Source: Flavobacterium algicola | GTDB lineage: Bacteria; Bacteroidota; Bacteroidia; Flavobacteriales; Flavobacteriaceae | DNA length: 64,000 bases | Assembly: GCF_022399565.1 (NCBI RefSeq) | Contig: NZ_JAJTUT010000001.1 | Coordinates: forward strand, 1,539,336-1,603,335 | Direction of reading: 5' to 3' | Shown: positions 27,878 to 35,434 of the stretch, one piece after another | Position numbering within the stretch: the stretch's first letter is position 1 | How the letters are laid out: each line of letters begins with the position of its first letter | Program-made: the position numbers and the translations under genes | Notes under the pieces: generated by a model | What the model saw: the letters and a program-made list of their open reading frames with translations, nothing else | Told to the model about the DNA's origin: nothing | Databases searched by the model: none

Positions 27878-29161
27878 ATGAAATTTTTAAATGCTACCGC
27901 ATATCTTCTCTCTGCAGGATTACTTATTTGCTGCGACAAAAATGATATCGATGATAATGACTCTTTTAATCCTCCCACAATTGAGAATACTGGTGTCTCA
28001 TTACCCTATTCTATTTTAAGTACAAGTAATGGCGTTGAAATCAGAAATGGAGGATTTGGTTCAGCAGCTTGTGCGCATCCTTCAAAATTGGGTGAGTTTT
28101 ACGCGATGACAGACCGAGGTCCGAATGCCGATGCTACAGGTGGAAAGTATTTTCCCGTAGCAGATTACACGCCTAGGATTGGACATTTCAAATTAAATAA
28201 TGATGGAACTGTAAGTAAGGTAAATGAAATTTTATTTAAAACTCCAGCGGGAATACCAATTAGTGGTAGACCCAATCCAGTTGGTTTTGGATCGACAGGT
28301 GAAATAGCATATGATTTATCTGGAAGTGTTCTTGCTACGGATGAATATGGACTTGATTCTGAGGGTTTGGCCGCGATGAATGATGGTTCTTTTTGGGTGT
28401 CTGATGAATATGGACCTCATATCGTTCATTATAGTAATACTGGAATTCAATTGGAGAGAATTAGTCCGGTGGGTATAAATACAGGTATTCGAAAACTACC
28501 AGCAGTATTTGTAAAGCGATGGGCAAATCGCGGAATGGAGGGTTTAACTGTAACGCCAGATCAAAAAACATTGGTAGGGATTATGCAGTCACGATTGTAC
28601 AACCCATCAAATGCAGCTGCAACAAATAAAACGCTAACCAGAATTGTAACTTTTGATATTGCCACCGGTACTACCAAACAATTTTTATACAAGCAAGAAA
28701 TAGATAATAATTCCAATTCAGAGATCACTGCATTGAGTGCTAGTCAGTTTTTAATTATAGAACGTGACGGAAACTTTAGTGCCGATGGTCCGGTTATGAA
28801 ACATATTTATAAAATTGACATTAGCAAAGCAACAGATGTTTCTGGGAATGACTTTAATGCCGAAAATGGATATATGGTTAATGGTAAGACACTGGAGGCT
28901 AATTCTTGGGAAGAATTGGCTCAGGCCAATATTATTGCAGTATCAAAAACACTTGCTGTAGATGTGGTTAAATATTTAGGAGGATATCCTCATGATAAGC
29001 TAGAAGGGATTTGGTTGATTAACGCTAATACTATTGGTATCATCAATGACGACGATTTTGGTATTTGGAGTGATGCTACAAATAAAATTAAATCCAAGAC
29101 TTTATCTCCTACAAGTGGTAGCCAAAAAGATAGTAATAAATTGTATATACTGAAATTTTAA
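27878..29161 (+). CDS. Esterase-like phytase-family lipoprotein
   Basis: 427 residues from the ATG at 27878; the TTG 27 bases earlier is less likely because a signal peptide begins at the ATG. N terminus is a signal peptide with a Cys (LLSAGLLICC) suited to lipidation. The body follows the esterase-like phytase family: FYAMTDRGPNAD, GLDSEGLAAMNDGSFWVSDEYGPHI, the loop NRGMEGLTVTPD and ALSASQFLIIERDGN. The repeated EG/DE patterns mark a beta-propeller. Probably an envelope phosphoesterase-type enzyme; substrate unknown. Confidence 0.82.
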   Translation: MKFLNATAYLLSAGLLICCDKNDIDDNDSFNPPTIENTGVSLPYSILSTSNGVEIRNGGFGSAACAHPSKLGEFYAMTDRGPNADATGGKYFPVADYTPRIGHFKLNNDGTVSKVNEILFKTPAGIPISGRPNPVGFGSTGEIAYDLSGSVLATDEYGLDSEGLAAMNDGSFWVSDEYGPHIVHYSNTGIQLERISPVGINTGIRKLPAVFVKRWANRGMEGLTVTPDQKTLVGIMQSRLYNPSNAAATNKTLTRIVTFDIATGTTKQFLYKQEIDNNSNSEITALSASQFLIIERDGNFSADGPVMKHIYKIDISKATDVSGNDFNAENGYMVNGKTLEANSWEELAQANIIAVSKTLAVDVVKYLGGYPHDKLEGIWLINANTIGIINDDDFGIWSDATNKIKSKTLSPTSGSQKDSNKLYILKF

Positions 29162-29249
29162 TAAGTGCGGGTACATTAATAATATCCATATGATTTTTGA
29201 CCAAGGTGAATTTAAAAGATAGACTCGCAAAATAAACACGTATTAAAGT

Positions 29250-29295
29250 GCTCAAAACGAATTGTAAAATTCTGCTTTGAGCATTTTTTTTTATT
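29250..29295 (+). terminator. Terminator of the phytase-esterase-like gene
   Basis: GTGCTCAAA (29249-29257 region) pairs with TTTGAGCAT, followed by eight T residues, 90 bases past the stop. Confidence 0.7.
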
Positions 29296-29786
29296 TCAAA
29301 ATATCAGTAGTTGATAAGGCATCGCATTTTTTTAGTTCCTTATCCTTTCGTCTTTTTCTTTCTAAATTTCGATACCATTACTTTTTCTATGACAGAGGTG
29401 TTAATATTTATCGTAGTAAGAAGATGTTTTTGAAAGAATAATGGCACTATTTAAAATGATGAACAACTAATCAGTCAAAAAAATAACTGGAATAATATGA
29501 AAATGAGAAAAAATCATGATGAATAGATCGATTGTATATCGTGTATTTATCTAAGAAGAGATAAATTAAATCTAAAATTATTTTAGATGGTAATGATCTC
29601 AATTTATTTTAAGGGTGTAAACTCGCTAAAGTAAGAATTATTAACAAGATTTTAATTATAAAAACAATTAGAGCTTGCTAAAAGGCAACTCGATAATTGT
29701 ATCTTTTAGATTACTTTATTTGTTACGTTAAAAAATTATAAAGTAGTAAATCGGAAATATTGGTATCTTAACTGAAATGTCAATTA

Positions 29787-29821
29787 TTTGAAAATCAGAC
29801 TAAAAATTACATCTACATTTG
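29787..29821 (+). promoter_or_regulatory. Candidate promoter of the fibre locus
   Basis: TTTG (29787-29790), 23 bases, then TACATTTG (29814-29821), matching TAnnTTTG. Spacing is a few bases longer than the Bacteroidota norm. The first gene starts 37 bases later. Confidence 0.5.
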
Positions 29822-29857
29822 CACCAGAAATAAATCAAAAATTTAATATCCCCCCAA

Positions 29858-30379
29858 ATGAAAAATTTAATTATTGCATCTTTTATCTTATTAGGACTAT
29901 CTACAGTTAATGCACAAAACGTTACTTTAAACGTAAAATTAAAACCAATTCAAACCCTTGTTGTTAATACTGCTCAAAAAACTGTTGACTTAGAATACTC
30001 TTCAAAAGATGATTACAAAAACGGTGTTACTTCAACAAATACAGATCATTTGAACATTTATAGCACTGGAGGTTTTCAAGTAAAAGTAAAAAGTGCAACT
30101 GCTTCGATGACTAATGGAACTAAAAAAATTGAAGCAAACAGCATCCAACTTACAGCAACTGCAGGAACGGATGGAATTACTGGAGCTACGTACTCATCTA
30201 ATTTAAAATTGTCTACTGCAGAAACACTTCTTGTATCGTCTACAGCAGGTGGTGTAGATAAAAAAATATCTGTTGCTTATAAAGGAGCTGGAGCAGAAGC
30301 TTACCTTGATAATTACATTGCAGGTCAAACGCCTACTGTTTATACTACTGAACTTACTTATACAATTATAAGTCAATAA
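29858..30379 (+). CDS. Small exported fibre-subunit-like protein
   Basis: 173 residues: signal peptide MKNLIIASFILLGLSTVNA, then an all-beta mature domain of about 150 residues with NVTLNVKLKPIQTLVV, DYKNGVTST, GGFQVKVKSA and a final strand TTELTYTIISQ. The pattern (alternating hydrophobic residues, strand at the C terminus) resembles Ig-like pilin subunits. Its sequence resembles the C-terminal half of the 341-residue protein two genes on (shared NG, FQ-KV, closing Y-I-Q), so they appear to be homologous. It is first in the locus and followed by a hairpin, as expected of an abundant major subunit. No known family is recognised. Confidence 0.75.
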   Translation: MKNLIIASFILLGLSTVNAQNVTLNVKLKPIQTLVVNTAQKTVDLEYSSKDDYKNGVTSTNTDHLNIYSTGGFQVKVKSATASMTNGTKKIEANSIQLTATAGTDGITGATYSSNLKLSTAETLLVSSTAGGVDKKISVAYKGAGAEAYLDNYIAGQTPTVYTTELTYTIISQ

Positions 30380-30404
30380 GTAAACCTTTTCATAATTAAT
30401 AAAT

Positions 30405-30434
30405 AGTGCTGCAAGAAATAGTGGCACTTTTTTA
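30405..30434 (+). terminator. Attenuator-like hairpin between subunit and chaperone genes
   Basis: AGTGC (30405-30409) and GCACT (30424-30428) form a 5-bp stem with a 14-base loop and a T run to 30434. It is weak, so partial termination would leave more subunit than chaperone or usher transcript. Confidence 0.5.
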
Positions 30435-30491
30435 TTTACTAACTTTGTGTTTTTCAATTAAATGTAATTGTAGCCCCAAAGAAAACCTATA

Positions 30492-31283
30492 ATGAACAAA
30501 TTTTTTTTATTTTTTTATTTTTTTATTCTCCAAGCAACTGCCCAAACTGGCATATCTGTATCACCACCTAGAATATACTTTGATTCTAAATTAGGAGGTA
30601 GTAATACACAGCTAATATCAGTGACAAACGTAAGTGCAACAAACACTCTCGATCTCGCTGTAAGCCTTGGCGATTGGGAATATGATGAAAAAGGTGAAAA
30701 CCAGATGTTCAGTGCAAACACTCTTGCAAACTCTTGTGCAAATTGGATTTCGATAAAAAACACCGATAATTATTTTACTTTAAAACCAGGAGAAAGAAAA
30801 GAGCTTGAAATAACTGTTACGCCACCCAAAACGGCAATTGATACACTAGCAGCTCACACTGCGGTATTATATGTCAGTCAAATGAATCCTGTGGATGATG
30901 TTGATAATAAAGGTACCTCCATAAAAGTGAGTATTCGTTCTGGGATTAAAATTTTTCACAGTTATCCTGAGAATTTTATTCGAAAAGTAGAAATAGAGGA
31001 TTTAAAGTACGATCAGTCCCTAAACAAAGTAAATTTAAAATTTCGCAATCAATCTAAATTATGGGTTGACGGAAAGATATCTGGAGAAATAATTAATACT
31101 AAAACAGGTAAAAAATCAGTTTTAAATAATGTTGTTTTTTACACATTACCAGGAAATTTGCGAACGTTAAGTTTACCTGTGTTAGAAACCTTAGAAAAAG
31201 GATCGTATAATGCCTCAATAATTATTGATTATGGGGATGCTGCGCAATTAGAAATGGCTGAACTAAATTTTAATTATGAATAA
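30492..31283 (+). CDS. PapD-like periplasmic chaperone
   Basis: 263 residues: signal peptide ending TAQ, then GISVSPPRIYFD with a strand typical of the first strand of PapD-like domain 1, VTNVSATNTLDLAVSLGDW, FTLKPGERKELEITVTPP (the E-F region that precedes the subunit-binding G1 strand in classical chaperones) and a second Ig domain beginning near residue 155 (IEDLKYDQSLNKVNLKFRNQS). Two Ig domains and length fit the family. It lies between two subunit genes; the downstream start overlaps it by 8 bases. Sequence divergence from proteobacterial chaperones is large, so the role as donor-strand chaperone is inferred. Confidence 0.68.
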   Translation: MNKFFLFFYFFILQATAQTGISVSPPRIYFDSKLGGSNTQLISVTNVSATNTLDLAVSLGDWEYDEKGENQMFSANTLANSCANWISIKNTDNYFTLKPGERKELEITVTPPKTAIDTLAAHTAVLYVSQMNPVDDVDNKGTSIKVSIRSGIKIFHSYPENFIRKVEIEDLKYDQSLNKVNLKFRNQSKLWVDGKISGEIINTKTGKKSVLNNVVFYTLPGNLRTLSLPVLETLEKGSYNASIIIDYGDAAQLEMAELNFNYE

Positions 31284-32301
31284 ATTCATCGTAATTATAT
31301 GTTGTTTATTTTCACTGTTCTCCTTCTCCCAAGTAGCATTTACATCTTGGACAAATTCGTATTTACAGGTAACATCCTATAATGGGAACAGTAGCTCTGA
31401 AGCATTGACAGCAAAATTGGCAGGAAATGGAAATTTTACTATTCCTAACTGGAAATTATCGGCAAAGATCAATCAAACGCTTGTTTCAGATGATGGTAAA
31501 TACACTCTACCTGCAAATAAAATTTCTTTTCAACCTTCATCAACAACGGGTCAACAGTCACCAACGGCGACACCATCATTTACTGAAATTGGCGCGCCTT
31601 TAAATGTAATATTGCAAGAGAATGCAGAAGCATTTTTAATTCCAAATTCGAATAGTCCTATATATAATAATTCATCGCAGACTAGTTCCTATTATTTTTT
31701 ACAAATGAAATTTAATTTCACAGTAATTGGCGGGGCATATTTAGGTGCTTTCCCTGCGTGGACAAAATTTACTGTTCCTATTGAATTTACAACTTATAAC
31801 CAGAGTAACGGAATCATTGGTAAATCTACTCAAACTTACCAAATACAAATCGGTAATATTACTGATGCACCTCCAGTCGCTGATGAAATGTCAATGCAGA
31901 TTAATTTAAGTGCGTCAAAAGGAGTTTTGGAATTTAAAAGTATTCAAGATTACAGCAATGGTGCCAGCGTGACCTACACTGATGGATTATCTGTAAAGAG
32001 CAATACTAATTTCCAAATAAAAGTTCGTTCGCTAAATAGTAATTTACAGTCAGCAACTGGTAACACCATACCAATCGATGTAGTAAACCTTACTTTGTCA
32101 GGAGGTTCAAATTCCAACCAAACAATTACACCAATTGTTTTAAGTAGCTCGAGTCAAGCATTGGTGAAGACGAATACAAGTATTTTAACGACCTACAAAT
32201 ATGACATTAAATACTACACGACTGGTCAAGATCAACGATTAATTAGCGCCAAGTCTGATGATTATGCCACAACGTTACAATATGAGATAACCCCTCAATA
32301 A
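31276..32301 (+). CDS. Two-domain fibre subunit, probable tip or adhesin-like protein
   Basis: 341 residues: signal peptide ending SFSQ, an N-terminal domain of about 175 residues (Ser/Thr/Asn-rich, VAFTSWTNSYLQ, ASFNFTVIG-like strands), then a C-terminal domain from about 200 with DEMSMQINLSASKGVLEF, YSNGASVTYTDGLSVKS, FQIKVRSL and a final LQYEITPQ. The C-terminal domain resembles the 173-residue subunit two genes earlier. A receptor-like N-terminal domain attached to a pilin-like one is the layout of tip adhesins such as FimH. Adhesion is inferred; the N-terminal domain is not recognised. Confidence 0.65.
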   Translation: MNKFIVIICCLFSLFSFSQVAFTSWTNSYLQVTSYNGNSSSEALTAKLAGNGNFTIPNWKLSAKINQTLVSDDGKYTLPANKISFQPSSTTGQQSPTATPSFTEIGAPLNVILQENAEAFLIPNSNSPIYNNSSQTSSYYFLQMKFNFTVIGGAYLGAFPAWTKFTVPIEFTTYNQSNGIIGKSTQTYQIQIGNITDAPPVADEMSMQINLSASKGVLEFKSIQDYSNGASVTYTDGLSVKSNTNFQIKVRSLNSNLQSATGNTIPIDVVNLTLSGGSNSNQTITPIVLSSSSQALVKTNTSILTTYKYDIKYYTTGQDQRLISAKSDDYATTLQYEITPQ

Positions 32302-32311
32302 CCCCCAAAAA

Positions 32312-35107
32312 ATGCCCCTTAATAAATTGAGACTTTTATCGAAATTTATTTTTTTTCTACTTTTCAGCATTCCCATTATAGCACAGAATAGTGATCGTGG
32401 CGTTTTGATGACTGTGGAGAACGATATTTCGTTTAAGCAACCTACTCTACTAAGCTTGGTGGTGGTAATCGAAAATACCAATGCGACTACACTAAGTGGA
32501 AAATTAAAATTTGAAGCGCTTCAAGGATTTCGAAATTTAAGTGGTGATAATTCATCTTTAAAACTGGCTCCCGGAGAAACACGCCACATTCCTGTGAAGT
32601 TTATCATAGGAGCAGACGCTATGGCTGGAACATCAGTATTTATTTGTAAACTAACTTCTGCAGACGGTACGATCATAGCACAGCATAGTACTACTCATAC
32701 TATAAATCAAGACAATACGCTAACGATCACGCCAATTGAAAGTACTATCTATCGCTTATCTAATAATCAACCTATCGCTGTCAAAGTAAAAGTGAGTAAT
32801 AAAGGTAATATTTCGCAAAGTATAACACTAGTTTGTAAGTTTCCTGACCCTTCCAATTCAAACCTTTTTATCGAACAAAATGCTACCCTTGCAGTTAAAA
32901 AAGATTCCATCTTCACGTTTACTTATCTTCCTTCTAAGGTTTTAGTTAAGCAATCTACTTATACTGTAAGAATTTCGGGTTTTAGAAATCCCGACAAAGA
33001 AATCTTTGGAAATACAACTGTTGATATTCAAAATATTTCAAGCACACAACAATACCAAGCAGTTGACTTTACGAATTTTACTCAAGAAACATCTAACGAA
33101 ATTAGCGCCAGTTACAGAAGGCTAGGTGGTGACGTAGATTTTTATCAACTCAAAGGTTCGGGTGGTATAAATATTCCGTCGGGCTATCTGTTCCTGCGCG
33201 GAAATGTTGCATTATCTAATAGTCAGCAAGCGCCATTGGTTACTAATACTAACTTAACATACCGTCAAGGAAGTAATGAGTTTAGTGTTGGAAATATCAG
33301 TAAGTTATTTGAAATGATATTTGTGGGAAGAGGTGCTGAATACAGCCATACATTTAACAAAAAAGAGAAAATCGAGTTTGGCTTTATAGATCAGAATTAC
33401 AATTTATTGGAAGAAAACAGCTGGTTAAAATACGGATATGGTTTCTATGCAAATGCTATTTTAAACCCTGAGAACAGCACCACAAATCTAACTGCGAATT
33501 ACCTGTATAGTTACGATCCATTCGAAAAAGCCAAACATAACATCATTGGAACCACTGCAAAATACGAGTTTAATCGTGATTGGAGTATGATTACCAAATT
33601 AAATGGAGGATTAAGTACCTATGATTTGAATGCATCAACTAAAACGTCATTTGCGGCAGAGTCAAATTATATCGGAAAAATAAAAGACGTTAACTTGAAC
33701 GGAAATTACTTTTTTAGCACAGATTATTATCCCGGTAATCGAAGAGGAAACATACAACTACAGCAAAGTTTTTCAACACCAATAAAAAAACACAACGTAT
33801 ATGCCAACGTAACATATGCTAATTTTGCACCCAAATACTATTCCTTTGATACAACTCAGGAATCTGCGAATACCCGATTAGATATAGGAATCAGATTTCC
33901 AAAATTTAAAAGTTTTAGTTACAATTTAGCATATCAATATCAAAGTGAGCAATCTAATAGTTTTAGCACGCTACTTGGAAACCTCGATAATAATGGAACA
34001 CAAAAAATGGCTGCACATCGTATTGCTCAGCAATTTTCATGGGTCAATAATATTTCAAGACAATCAGCTTTGTTAGGAATTGAAACAGGAGCAGTGCGTT
34101 ATCCGACAATGGCCAATGACCAATATCAGATGAAAATCAATGCGAACTATAACTATAAAAATTTCAATATAAATTCGGTGTACCAATTAGGAAGCTACTA
34201 TCTTTCTGAATACATTTTTTCGTCAGTAATAGCTGCAGATGAAGATTATCAAAAGCTTTCTTTATCATTGTTTTATAACAGTAATTTCTTGAATAATAAA
34301 CTGAACTTTAACAGCGGATTTACTTATGTGGATGACATTATATATGGCAAATCTCCGTCTGCTTTTATAAATACAAGATATAATGGCAAGTCCTTTAGTA
34401 CCTTTCTAAATTCTTCTTGGTATAATTATACGATTGGTGGTTTAATAAACAATAGTATAACGCTAGAGCTAGGTGTTACGGTAAGATTGCAAAATACTAT
34501 TTTGAATCCTGATAAAAAAAGTACAATTAAGGTAACTGCTTTTTACGATAGAAACAATAATAATAGATTGGATTCCGATGAAATTTTAGCTGCAAATTAT
34601 ACTATCAACATCAATACAATCGCCTTAAGAACAGATGAGGACGGAACTGCGTCTTACAAAAAAATCCCTTATGGTATTTATTACTTAAAGCAGTTTACTC
34701 AAGATGGATGGTATTATAATGATGCGGCAATAAATGTAGACCGACACAATTACAACCTCAATTTACCATTGCATCAAAGTGGAAAAGTAGAGGGAAAAGT
34801 TGTCTTTAACTACAATGCCGAAACAGCATTAGATTTTGAAAAGCGAGGATACGGAATTACATTCAACGTTACACAAAACGGAAAATTGATTCAGAAAATT
34901 CAAACCAATGACAACGGTAATTTTACTCTTTTTCTTCCAACTGGTGATTATAGTATAGTAATTGACGAGCAATCGCTACCGGTCAATACGTATTGTACTG
35001 TGAAAAGCCAAGATGCTAAACTTGAAACTGGAAAAATTGTTGTTATTCCTCCTTTTACAATTAATGTTAAGGAGAAAAGAATCAATACAAAGAAATTTAC
35101 AAATTGA
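32312..35107 (+). CDS. Outer-membrane barrel protein, usher-like
   Basis: 931 residues: signal peptide ending PIIAQ, two Ig-like domains (about 27-130 and 135-240), then roughly 500 residues of alternating short aromatic-ended strands (NLTYRQGSNEFSVG, YGYGFYANAIL, ANYLYSYDPF and many similar) that look like a large transmembrane barrel, then a CNA-B/SdrD-like domain (VKVTAFYDRNNNNRLDSDE with the typical acidic Ca-type loop) and another beta domain near the end. Barrel plus flanking Ig-like and C-terminal domains is how ushers are built, but no PapC/FimD signature is visible. Position last in the locus fits. Novel or divergent family. Confidence 0.6.
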   Translation: MPLNKLRLLSKFIFFLLFSIPIIAQNSDRGVLMTVENDISFKQPTLLSLVVVIENTNATTLSGKLKFEALQGFRNLSGDNSSLKLAPGETRHIPVKFIIGADAMAGTSVFICKLTSADGTIIAQHSTTHTINQDNTLTITPIESTIYRLSNNQPIAVKVKVSNKGNISQSITLVCKFPDPSNSNLFIEQNATLAVKKDSIFTFTYLPSKVLVKQSTYTVRISGFRNPDKEIFGNTTVDIQNISSTQQYQAVDFTNFTQETSNEISASYRRLGGDVDFYQLKGSGGINIPSGYLFLRGNVALSNSQQAPLVTNTNLTYRQGSNEFSVGNISKLFEMIFVGRGAEYSHTFNKKEKIEFGFIDQNYNLLEENSWLKYGYGFYANAILNPENSTTNLTANYLYSYDPFEKAKHNIIGTTAKYEFNRDWSMITKLNGGLSTYDLNASTKTSFAAESNYIGKIKDVNLNGNYFFSTDYYPGNRRGNIQLQQSFSTPIKKHNVYANVTYANFAPKYYSFDTTQESANTRLDIGIRFPKFKSFSYNLAYQYQSEQSNSFSTLLGNLDNNGTQKMAAHRIAQQFSWVNNISRQSALLGIETGAVRYPTMANDQYQMKINANYNYKNFNINSVYQLGSYYLSEYIFSSVIAADEDYQKLSLSLFYNSNFLNNKLNFNSGFTYVDDIIYGKSPSAFINTRYNGKSFSTFLNSSWYNYTIGGLINNSITLELGVTVRLQNTILNPDKKSTIKVTAFYDRNNNNRLDSDEILAANYTININTIALRTDEDGTASYKKIPYGIYYLKQFTQDGWYYNDAAINVDRHNYNLNLPLHQSGKVEGKVVFNYNAETALDFEKRGYGITFNVTQNGKLIQKIQTNDNGNFTLFLPTGDYSIVIDEQSLPVNTYCTVKSQDAKLETGKIVVIPPFTINVKEKRINTKKFTN

Positions 35108-35126
35108 TAGATGGAGAGGAAAAATT

Positions 35127-35166
35127 GTTGTTCTAGTATATAAGAAGTAGAACAACCTTTCTTTTA
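35127..35166 (+). terminator. Terminator of the fibre locus
   Basis: GTTGTTCTA (35127-35135) pairs with TAGAACAAC (35148-35156), followed by CTTTCTTTT. It lies 20 bases after the last stop. Confidence 0.75.
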
Positions 35167-35182
35167 AATTTATTCCATAAAA

Positions 35183-35208
35183 TAAGCCTCTCAATTTCTT
35201 GAAAGGCT
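35183..35208. terminator. Hairpin at the 3' side of tRNA-Met
   Basis: AAGCCT and AGGCTT arms enclose a 14-base loop directly past the tRNA 3' end on the minus strand, with T-rich flank; likely the tRNA terminator. Confidence 0.5.
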
Positions 35209-35217
35209 TGTTTTCTG

Positions 35218-35291
35218 TGGTCCCACCTGGGCTCGAACCAGGGACCACCTGATTATGAGTCAGGTGCTCTAACCAGCTGAGCTATAGGACC
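35218..35291 (-). tRNA. tRNA with anticodon CAT (Met; Ile2 not excluded)
   Basis: Seventy-four bases fold as a cloverleaf: acceptor GGTCCTA/TGGGACC, D arm AGCTCAGCTGGTTAGAGCA, anticodon stem CCTGA/TCAGG with loop CTCATAA, and T arm CCTGGTTCGAGCCCAGG. CAT serves Met, or Ile AUA after lysidine modification of the same anticodon; sequence alone does not decide. The 3' CCA is not encoded (CAG follows). First acceptor pairs have the normal G-C, so it is not the initiator type. Confidence 0.9.
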
Positions 35292-35434
35292 GGTTATGAG
35301 AGTGCAATATTACTACTATTTTTCGTTTGCTCCAAATATTTTTTAATTTGTTTTTAAAGATCTGCTACGAACAAAATTTTTATAGATTCAAATGAATTGA
35401 TTATTAGTGTGCTAAAGGGATTTTGAGTAAAAAA

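Follow-up and report, generated by a model that had tools for sequence, protein, structure and literature searches.

In chaperone-usher pili, the usher carries a plug domain between strands 6 and 7 of its outer-membrane barrel, and the barrel of the usher FimD has 24 strands. Archaic systems are the widely spread class of these pathways, and Bacteroidota are not named in the passages of PMC9452303 and PMC10104325 consulted. Among the matches listed from a search of open-licence PMC literature, as judged by title and start of abstract, we recognised no chaperone-usher system of Bacteroidota. In another cell-surface cluster, that of the WxL proteins, a strand of the immunoglobulin (Ig) pair of WxLIP is predicted to insert into WxL (PMC10599100). 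Here we analyse four adjacent genes of Flavobacterium algicola, which lie in a stretch of 64,000 nucleotides (hereafter the window; contig NZ_JAJTUT010000001.1 of assembly GCF_022399565.1, positions 1,539,336 to 1,603,335, forward strand). Judging from the genes and from predicted structures, the four genes probably work as a divergent form of the chaperone-usher pathway, which would build an adhesive fibre on the cell surface.

A conserved four-gene cluster

The cluster consists of four open reading frames (ORFs) in series on the + strand, encoding proteins of 173, 263, 341 and 931 amino acids. The first (29858..30379) encodes a small exported beta subunit, the proposed major or shaft pilin, with an N-terminal extension that is the proposed donor strand. 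It is followed by a periplasmic chaperone of the PapD/FimC type with two Ig domains (30492..31283), identified from its predicted structure and a profile match, and by a two-domain subunit (31276..32301), the proposed tip adhesin, in which an N-terminal domain precedes a C-terminal domain of the pilin type. The last gene (32312..35107), present in one copy in the genome, encodes an outer-membrane protein that we call usher-like on the basis of predicted structure, Foldseek and profile comparison. Signal peptides were judged by eye. The chaperone and tip genes overlap by 8 bases, and 10 bases separate the tip gene from the barrel gene. A sequence-only reading of the window had described this row of four genes and its spacing, and both descriptions are correct.

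The gene set is conserved among relatives. We gathered loci by the barrel, fetching stretches around part of the matches from a search with a profile of 25 barrels, and scanned their ORFs with subunit, chaperone and barrel profiles. After a duplicate (L096, which repeats L035) and a decayed copy (L064) were dropped, 46 fetched loci and the window made up a set of 47, all of which contain the barrel by construction because they were gathered by it. The two-Ig chaperone was present in all 47 loci and small subunits in 46, with one to five subunits per locus in tandem; in 4 of the 103 subunit ORFs (in L098, L105, L107 and L108), the match is confined to the N-terminus and spans fewer than 100 columns of the profile. 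A long protein with a subunit-like C-terminal part was found in 44 loci, which hold all four parts, so that the four genes recur together in loci gathered by the barrel. The tip was not found in L101, L102 and L103 within the stretch fetched, and L103 was also without a subunit there. One gene order is that of the window (subunits, chaperone, tip, barrel). In a second order, which we term type B, subunits and chaperone are followed by the barrel and then by a tip of about 477 amino acids (L061-L063, L104, L106, L109 and L111), and two further loci, L100 and L101, are rearranged. By eye, an ORF resembling an AraC-type regulator lies upstream in several loci. In an alignment of 25 barrels, identity to the window barrel goes down to 18%. 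The decayed L064, on contig C4 of genome G473, is an additional barrel gene whose reading frame is broken by many stops, and contig C3 of the same genome carries two open copies.

Counts across genus, family and phylum indicate a scattered distribution, with no such system in the majority of sampled genomes. A search of 299 genomes of the genus with the window barrel gave matches in 29, and the profile of 25 barrels matched 37 of 398 genomes at E up to 1e-20. The barrel also occurs on a contig of F. frigidarium DSM 17623. Five of 199 genomes matched in the family sample, of which three were short matches to the C-terminal domain and two were real (the genome of the window itself and G094). The phylum sample gave matches in 56 of 395 genomes at E up to 0.001; 12 of the 395 were counted as real, and the rest were short domain matches. 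We found no relative on viral contigs by tblastn, and plasmids yielded no relative of the barrel or the chaperone.

A chaperone of the PapD/FimC superfamily

Predicted fold, a profile match and anchor residues place the chaperone in the PapD/FimC superfamily. An AlphaFold2 model built with 25 sequences shows two Ig domains with a mean predicted local distance difference test score (pLDDT) of 88.7. Foldseek matched this model to Enterococcus faecium WxLIP (2.3e-12) and human CEP192 (1.2e-9), followed by the pilus chaperones YadV, FimC and Caf1M at about 1e-8, and CsuC, the chaperone of an archaic pilus, was among the fold matches. By VIA-align, the model scored Z 13.7 against FimC (root-mean-square deviation 3.2, 186 aligned), 13.8 against CfaA (deviation 4.7) and 16.4 against WxLIP (deviation 6.2). 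Aligned with HHalign, the 47 chaperones matched seven chaperones of E. coli K-12 across both domains (probability 96.6, P 4.9e-10, 200 columns). The score was 72.2, against 21.4 for the best of 200 column shuffles and 16.5 for the reversed profile. For scale, the K-12 set reached a probability of 0.5 in the same test against EcpB, an annotated fimbrial chaperone. The protein had been called PapD-like from its sequence, and both its predicted fold and its profile do match PapD/FimC. The Pfam model PapD_N scored 13.4 bits on the window chaperone, under the 23-bit cut-off, and a PDB sequence search with the chaperone returned no pilus match.

In PapD, Arg8 and Lys112 anchor the C-terminus of the subunit. 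R27 and K153 of the window chaperone align to the equivalent residues of FimC. The first anchor position is R or K in 45 of 47 chaperones; the second is not universal, being K in 36 and H in 9. The Pfam models for WxLIP (the DUF916-DUF3324 pair) gave weak matches in 8 and 3 of 25 chaperones, with best E-values of 0.0058 and 0.0011.

Most tip proteins lack the subunit extension

The profile of the small subunits starts with a signal peptide, followed by a short extension of alternating hydrophobic residues. None of the 103 small subunits has a lipobox-like motif, and the window subunit is without cysteine. Built on these 103 sequences, with tips left out of the seed, the profile matched residues 204-341 of the window tip (E 3.3e-18), which upholds the earlier observation that the C-terminal half of this protein resembles the small subunit. 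The match to the window tip begins at position 35 of 175 in the profile. The subunits themselves match from positions 1-9, since the profile was built on them, and in 37 of 45 tips (a count that takes in the duplicate L096) the match begins beyond the extension, at position 33 or further on. A tip adhesin would need just such a terminal domain, one that accepts a strand and donates none, in a protein of two domains.

Similarities of the subunits to described proteins were few. Among the families listed for 32 subunits (25 of 26), the sole known pilin family was FimH_man-bind, in one member (E 0.0064). The window subunit alone matched nothing in PDB, and the subunit profile gave weak matches to TLP-1 (E 0.03), TLP-2 (E 0.02) and the spore protein BclA (0.019). 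The TLP-1 and TLP-2 chains (PDB 9ikj and 9ikk, 16 copies each) match weakly at the N-terminus of the subunit. A genome-wide search for DUF4402 was negative at E up to 1.

The barrel protein is usher-like

The model of the barrel protein (mean pLDDT 82.9, predicted template modelling score 0.50) predicts two N-terminal Ig-like domains (~31-247), a barrel (263-725) and C-terminal beta domains (736-919). The sequence-only reading had described a barrel flanked by Ig-like and CNA-B-like domains; the model agrees, and the CNA-B-like part matches Pfam SpaA at 25.9 bits, above the cut-off of 23.1. By sequence, Pfam detects SpaA and carboxypeptidase-regulatory-like domains in barrel proteins; 2 of 25 members also show TcfC (best E 0.023), an E-set domain that takes its name from an usher. 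We count 26 strands at 263-725 in the model, and the longest loop inside the barrel has about 20 residues. No plug insertion was seen in the model, which has a three-residue loop between strands 336-348 and 352-360, and the largest insertion at the plug place among the 47 barrels is 12 columns, in L101. The N-terminal tandem Ig region (~25-250) matches the chaperone family as a distant relative (probability 65.7, score 38.1, best of 200 shuffles 21.4).

Fold comparison of the predicted structure points to ushers. FimD occupies Foldseek ranks 1-9 (E 2.6e-14 to 1.2e-11), an axoneme Ig-repeat chain follows at rank 10 and PapC at rank 11 (1.9e-10). The first outer-membrane barrels other than ushers are LptD (1.1e-8) and then BtuB (2.1e-7), so that a TonB or LPS-assembly family, the placement that would have spoken against the sequence-only reading, stands below FimD and PapC.

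Profile comparison detects an usher signal in the first part of the barrel. When the barrel was trimmed to residues 250-440, the best usher alignment covered ~272-347, that is strands 2-6, and ended where the plug of FimD begins. At this end, a G-N...G-R-G-A stretch of the barrel lies on a G-D...R-G-A stretch of the usher, in the last strand before the plug. The trimmed region gave P 0.015 and a score of 22.5 against K-12 ushers (best of 200 shuffles 19.7), and P 0.0012 and a score of 29.5 against ushers together with six usher-like proteins of Bacteroidota (best of 300 shuffles 20.9, reversed 18.5), values that are flattered because the motif had already been noticed when the limits of the region were chosen. 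Scores for the trimmed region were 19.0 against TonB receptors and 16.9 against LptD. By group, the alignment is reproduced by 14 barrels (P 0.023). Residues G327, G339, R340 and G341 are invariant in the first 25 barrels, and R340 is lost in five distant loci of the wider set. Elsewhere in the protein, EcpC aligned with the barrel family in the C-terminal domains only (probability 36), and a PDB sequence search with the barrel gave no pilus match and one low E-value, to NOMO2 repeats (2e-6, by profile).

We interpret the alignment of strands 2-6 as probable homology to ushers, with the plug lost. The sequence-only reading had left a choice between a divergent usher and an independent solution; the Foldseek ranking and this alignment favour the former without proving it, and in the profile comparison strands 2-6 rise above all shuffles whereas the whole barrel gives no such signal. 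We call the barrel usher-like and do not file it under the usher family PF00577, because it has neither a match to the family model nor a plug.

A second usher-like family in Bacteroidota

Pfam ushers above the cut-off were found in none of 296 Bacteroidota genomes, which gave three weak matches. From two weak Pfam usher matches and the C-terminal matches of the phylum search, we traced a second usher-like family (L124-L129), whose members are about 950-1170 residues long and come for the most part from other classes of the phylum. Aligned to FimD, its members have a plug-like insertion. In L124-L128 the gene adjoins one for a chaperone related to that of the window family (HHalign probability 98.9) and one to four ORFs that are subunit-like by size, C-terminus and weak profile matches. 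When 390 genomes were searched with a profile of the second family, 86 matched at E up to 1e-10, 56 of these at E 3.6e-67 or better. A Pfam usher match, under the cut-off, was present in 1 of 6 members.

This family aligns with the window family over the last barrel strands and the C-terminal domains (P 7.7e-12; C-terminal domains alone, P 5.6e-13) and with FimD over a stretch of 256 columns in which the plug region lies (probability 61, P 8e-5). Its isolated plug and N-terminal domain gave no significant alignment with those of FimD. As a bridge from the window barrel to FimD, the second family is suggestive only, as judged by alignment. Since it bears a plug-like insertion and is accompanied by a chaperone and subunit-like ORFs, usher-like proteins seem to form two branches in the phylum.

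A covarying hairpin follows the pilin gene

A terminator-like hairpin followed by a T run lies between the pilin and chaperone genes (30405..30428, + strand). The sequence-only reading had given the cluster a single terminator and had regarded the whole as one transcription unit. The first of these claims is wrong, as this hairpin, the sole + strand site of its kind in a scan of 29100-35400, lies inside the cluster and not at its end, and the second needs correction. The scan alone means little, because 2.7 such sites were expected in the region and it found three. A strict scan was positive in 13 of 42 loci.

Covariation supports the stem. We aligned the 75-base stretch that follows the stop codon of the pilin gene in 19 loci, namely the 13 scan-positive loci and six near relatives (the window, L035, L036, L040, L044 and L110). 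The choice of these loci was made once the first scan was known; it excluded the type B and short-gap loci, which showed no hairpin. In this chosen set, 95.1% of cells pair and 7 of 12 pairs show compensatory changes on both sides; none of 500 shuffles reached either value. Kinship may beat shuffles without any structure, and slid versions of the register, which pair at 35-61%, argue against that explanation. Of the 19 chosen loci, 18 form no fewer than 9 of the 10 inner pairs; L054 forms 7 inner pairs in the common register and has a hairpin of its own further on. RNAalifold independently recovers the same stem. Partial termination at this point would yield shaft subunits in excess over the machinery.

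Other features of the locus

Upstream of the cluster, a promoter-like site of the Bacteroidota type, TTTG-N23-TACATTTG (29787..29821, + strand), ends 36 bases before the pilin ATG. We take this sequence to be the Bacteroidota promoter consensus, and the match is weak evidence by itself, because the 64-kb window holds 13 matches against 6.0 expected. Just past the cluster, at 35184-35291, a hairpin with a T run and a tRNA-Met gene lie on the - strand.

Alternative explanations

Several results weigh against a chaperone-usher pathway. The top fold match of the chaperone is WxLIP, which is not a pilus chaperone, in both Foldseek and VIA-align. The pilins gave no significant match to E. coli pilins (HHalign probability 5.6) or to solved structures, and no firm Pfam pilin family was among the matches listed for 32 subunits. 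In 8 of 45 tips (seven of type B and L100), the profile match starts at positions 17-27, and the extension may be partly kept. The usher model PF00577 is absent from the window barrel protein at E up to 5 and has no matches genome-wide at E up to 1, with a positive E. coli control. Over residues 253-727, VIA-align scores the barrel of the Mtr complex (Z 19.9) above PapC (15.9), and porins and TonB receptors reach about 14-16, so that this comparison is not specific to ushers. HHalign of the whole-length barrel family against six K-12 ushers returned noise (probability 0.6). Over residues 250-732, three TonB receptors scored 24.5 (P 0.047) and six ushers 23.0 (P 0.1), and because the receptors score slightly higher, the profile of the whole barrel does not discriminate. 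The usher signal is confined to the trimmed first part of the barrel (probability 19, P 0.0012), where the remaining group of 26 barrels aligns over the first 30 columns only (P 0.0064) and the seven type B barrels do not reproduce the alignment of strands 2-6. Finally, the N-terminal domains of the barrel protein do not match the N-terminal domain of ushers (probability 0.3).

Much of this would be expected of a convergent fibre system, in which a true relative of PapD serves an unrelated outer-membrane protein that was recruited as exit pore. Such a history would account for the missing Pfam usher match, the Mtr complex barrel as best VIA match, the 26 predicted strands without a plug, N-terminal domains unrelated to those of ushers, and TonB receptors scoring level with ushers over the whole barrel region. 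It would not explain why FimD heads the Foldseek list, why the usher alignment of strands 2-6 exceeds all 300 shuffles, or why the broad order of N-terminal beta domains, barrel and C-terminal beta domains is that of an usher, and we consider it unlikely. The fold match to WxLIP (Z 16.4) raises a different explanation, a surface adhesin complex that does not polymerise, in which the Ig pair stabilises the small and large proteins at the surface. In WxL clusters, too, an Ig pair accompanies two proteins, one small and one large, that have a domain in common (PMC10599100). The Gram-negative setting with a conserved large barrel, the PapD-type anchor residues and FimC profile match of the chaperone, small subunits in tandem arrays of as many as five and the extension missing from most tip domains make this explanation quite improbable.

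It is more doubtful still that the barrel is an uptake or efflux channel of the TonB or LptD type with accessory proteins. TonB barrels reach Z of about 14-15 by VIA, LptD and BtuB appear in Foldseek, and the TonB receptor profile gave P 0.047 against the barrel region; on the other side, LptD and BtuB are weaker than FimD in Foldseek, the model has no plug domain, the profiles of LptD and of single TonB receptors against the barrel region are at noise level, and a pilus-type chaperone stands beside the barrel in all 47 loci. Phylum and exported beta subunits would also suit the type V (FimA/Mfa1) fimbriae of Bacteroidota. These are the least probable explanation of all, given that P. gingivalis fimbrial proteins come from lipoprotein precursors with no helper proteins identified (PMC5789003), that none of the 103 subunits carries a lipobox-like motif, and that no FimA/Mfa family is among the 25 of 26 families listed for 32 subunits.

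Proposed mechanism and implications

In the chaperone-usher pathway that we favour, each subunit would be exported by Sec and held by the periplasmic chaperone, whose own G1 strand would complete the subunit fold. The chaperone-subunit complex may then dock at the barrel, perhaps via its N-terminal Ig domains, where the N-terminal extension of the incoming subunit would displace the chaperone strand in the preceding subunit. The growing fibre would exit through the barrel. The two-domain protein would start the fibre and form its adhesive tip, as a pilin domain of the window's type could accept a strand and not donate one. The small subunit would form the shaft, and the terminator-like hairpin after its gene may keep shaft subunits in excess. 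The data show the conserved gene set, the homology and predicted fold of the chaperone, the lack of the extension in most tip domains and the covariation of the hairpin; donor-strand exchange, for which that lack in 37 of 45 tips is indirect support, is inferred, as are the place of docking, the route through the barrel, adhesion and what the hairpin does.

How the barrel arose is a more tentative matter. Bacteroidota may own a deep branch of chaperone-usher systems, and the usher of the window lineage may have lost its plug, widened to 26 strands and swapped its N-terminal docking domain for a tandem-Ig module distantly related to the chaperone; we regard this history as possible and somewhat short of an even prospect. 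If it is true, the pore must be gated otherwise, perhaps by the Ig or the C-terminal domains, and a plugless usher would be a natural experiment on the purpose of the plug. If the four genes do make a fibre, a chaperone-usher route in Flavobacterium and relatives would be a second fibre pathway for the phylum, accessible to gene deletion and microscopy. Such systems also escape the Pfam usher model when its cut-off is applied.

Comparison with known systems

The cluster resembles the type 1 pilus of E. coli (FimA/FimC/FimD/FimH) in gene roles and clustering, in the predicted fold and anchor residues of the chaperone, in a barrel to which ushers are nearest by Foldseek, and in a two-domain tip with a pilin-like second domain. 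It differs in having no Pfam usher or PapD match above the cut-off and in pilins that are not recognisably related by sequence. Compared with FimD, the barrel is without a plug, has 26 predicted strands as against 24, and begins with Ig-like domains in place of the FimD-type N-terminal domain.

With the archaic Csu and CupE pili the cluster shares several subunits and a two-domain tip adhesin, as set out in PMC9452303, and CsuC is among the fold matches of the chaperone. Unlike in archaic pili, the spore-coat-U type pilin family is not among the families listed for 32 subunits. The type V fimbriae of Porphyromonas are likewise fibres of Bacteroidota, and a donor strand mechanism has been proposed for them; unlike the cluster, they use lipoprotein precursors matured by a protease, with no helper proteins identified (PMC5789003).

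The likeness to the WxLIP/WxL cluster extends from the fold of the chaperone to the combination of a small protein, a large protein with the same C-terminal domain and an Ig pair. In contrast to the cluster described here, WxLIP is anchored by a transmembrane helix at a Gram-positive surface, and the role described for it is binding of WxL and host, not fibre assembly (PMC10599100). The make-up of WxL clusters resembles the set of pilin, tip and chaperone, and a common origin of the two is worth testing.

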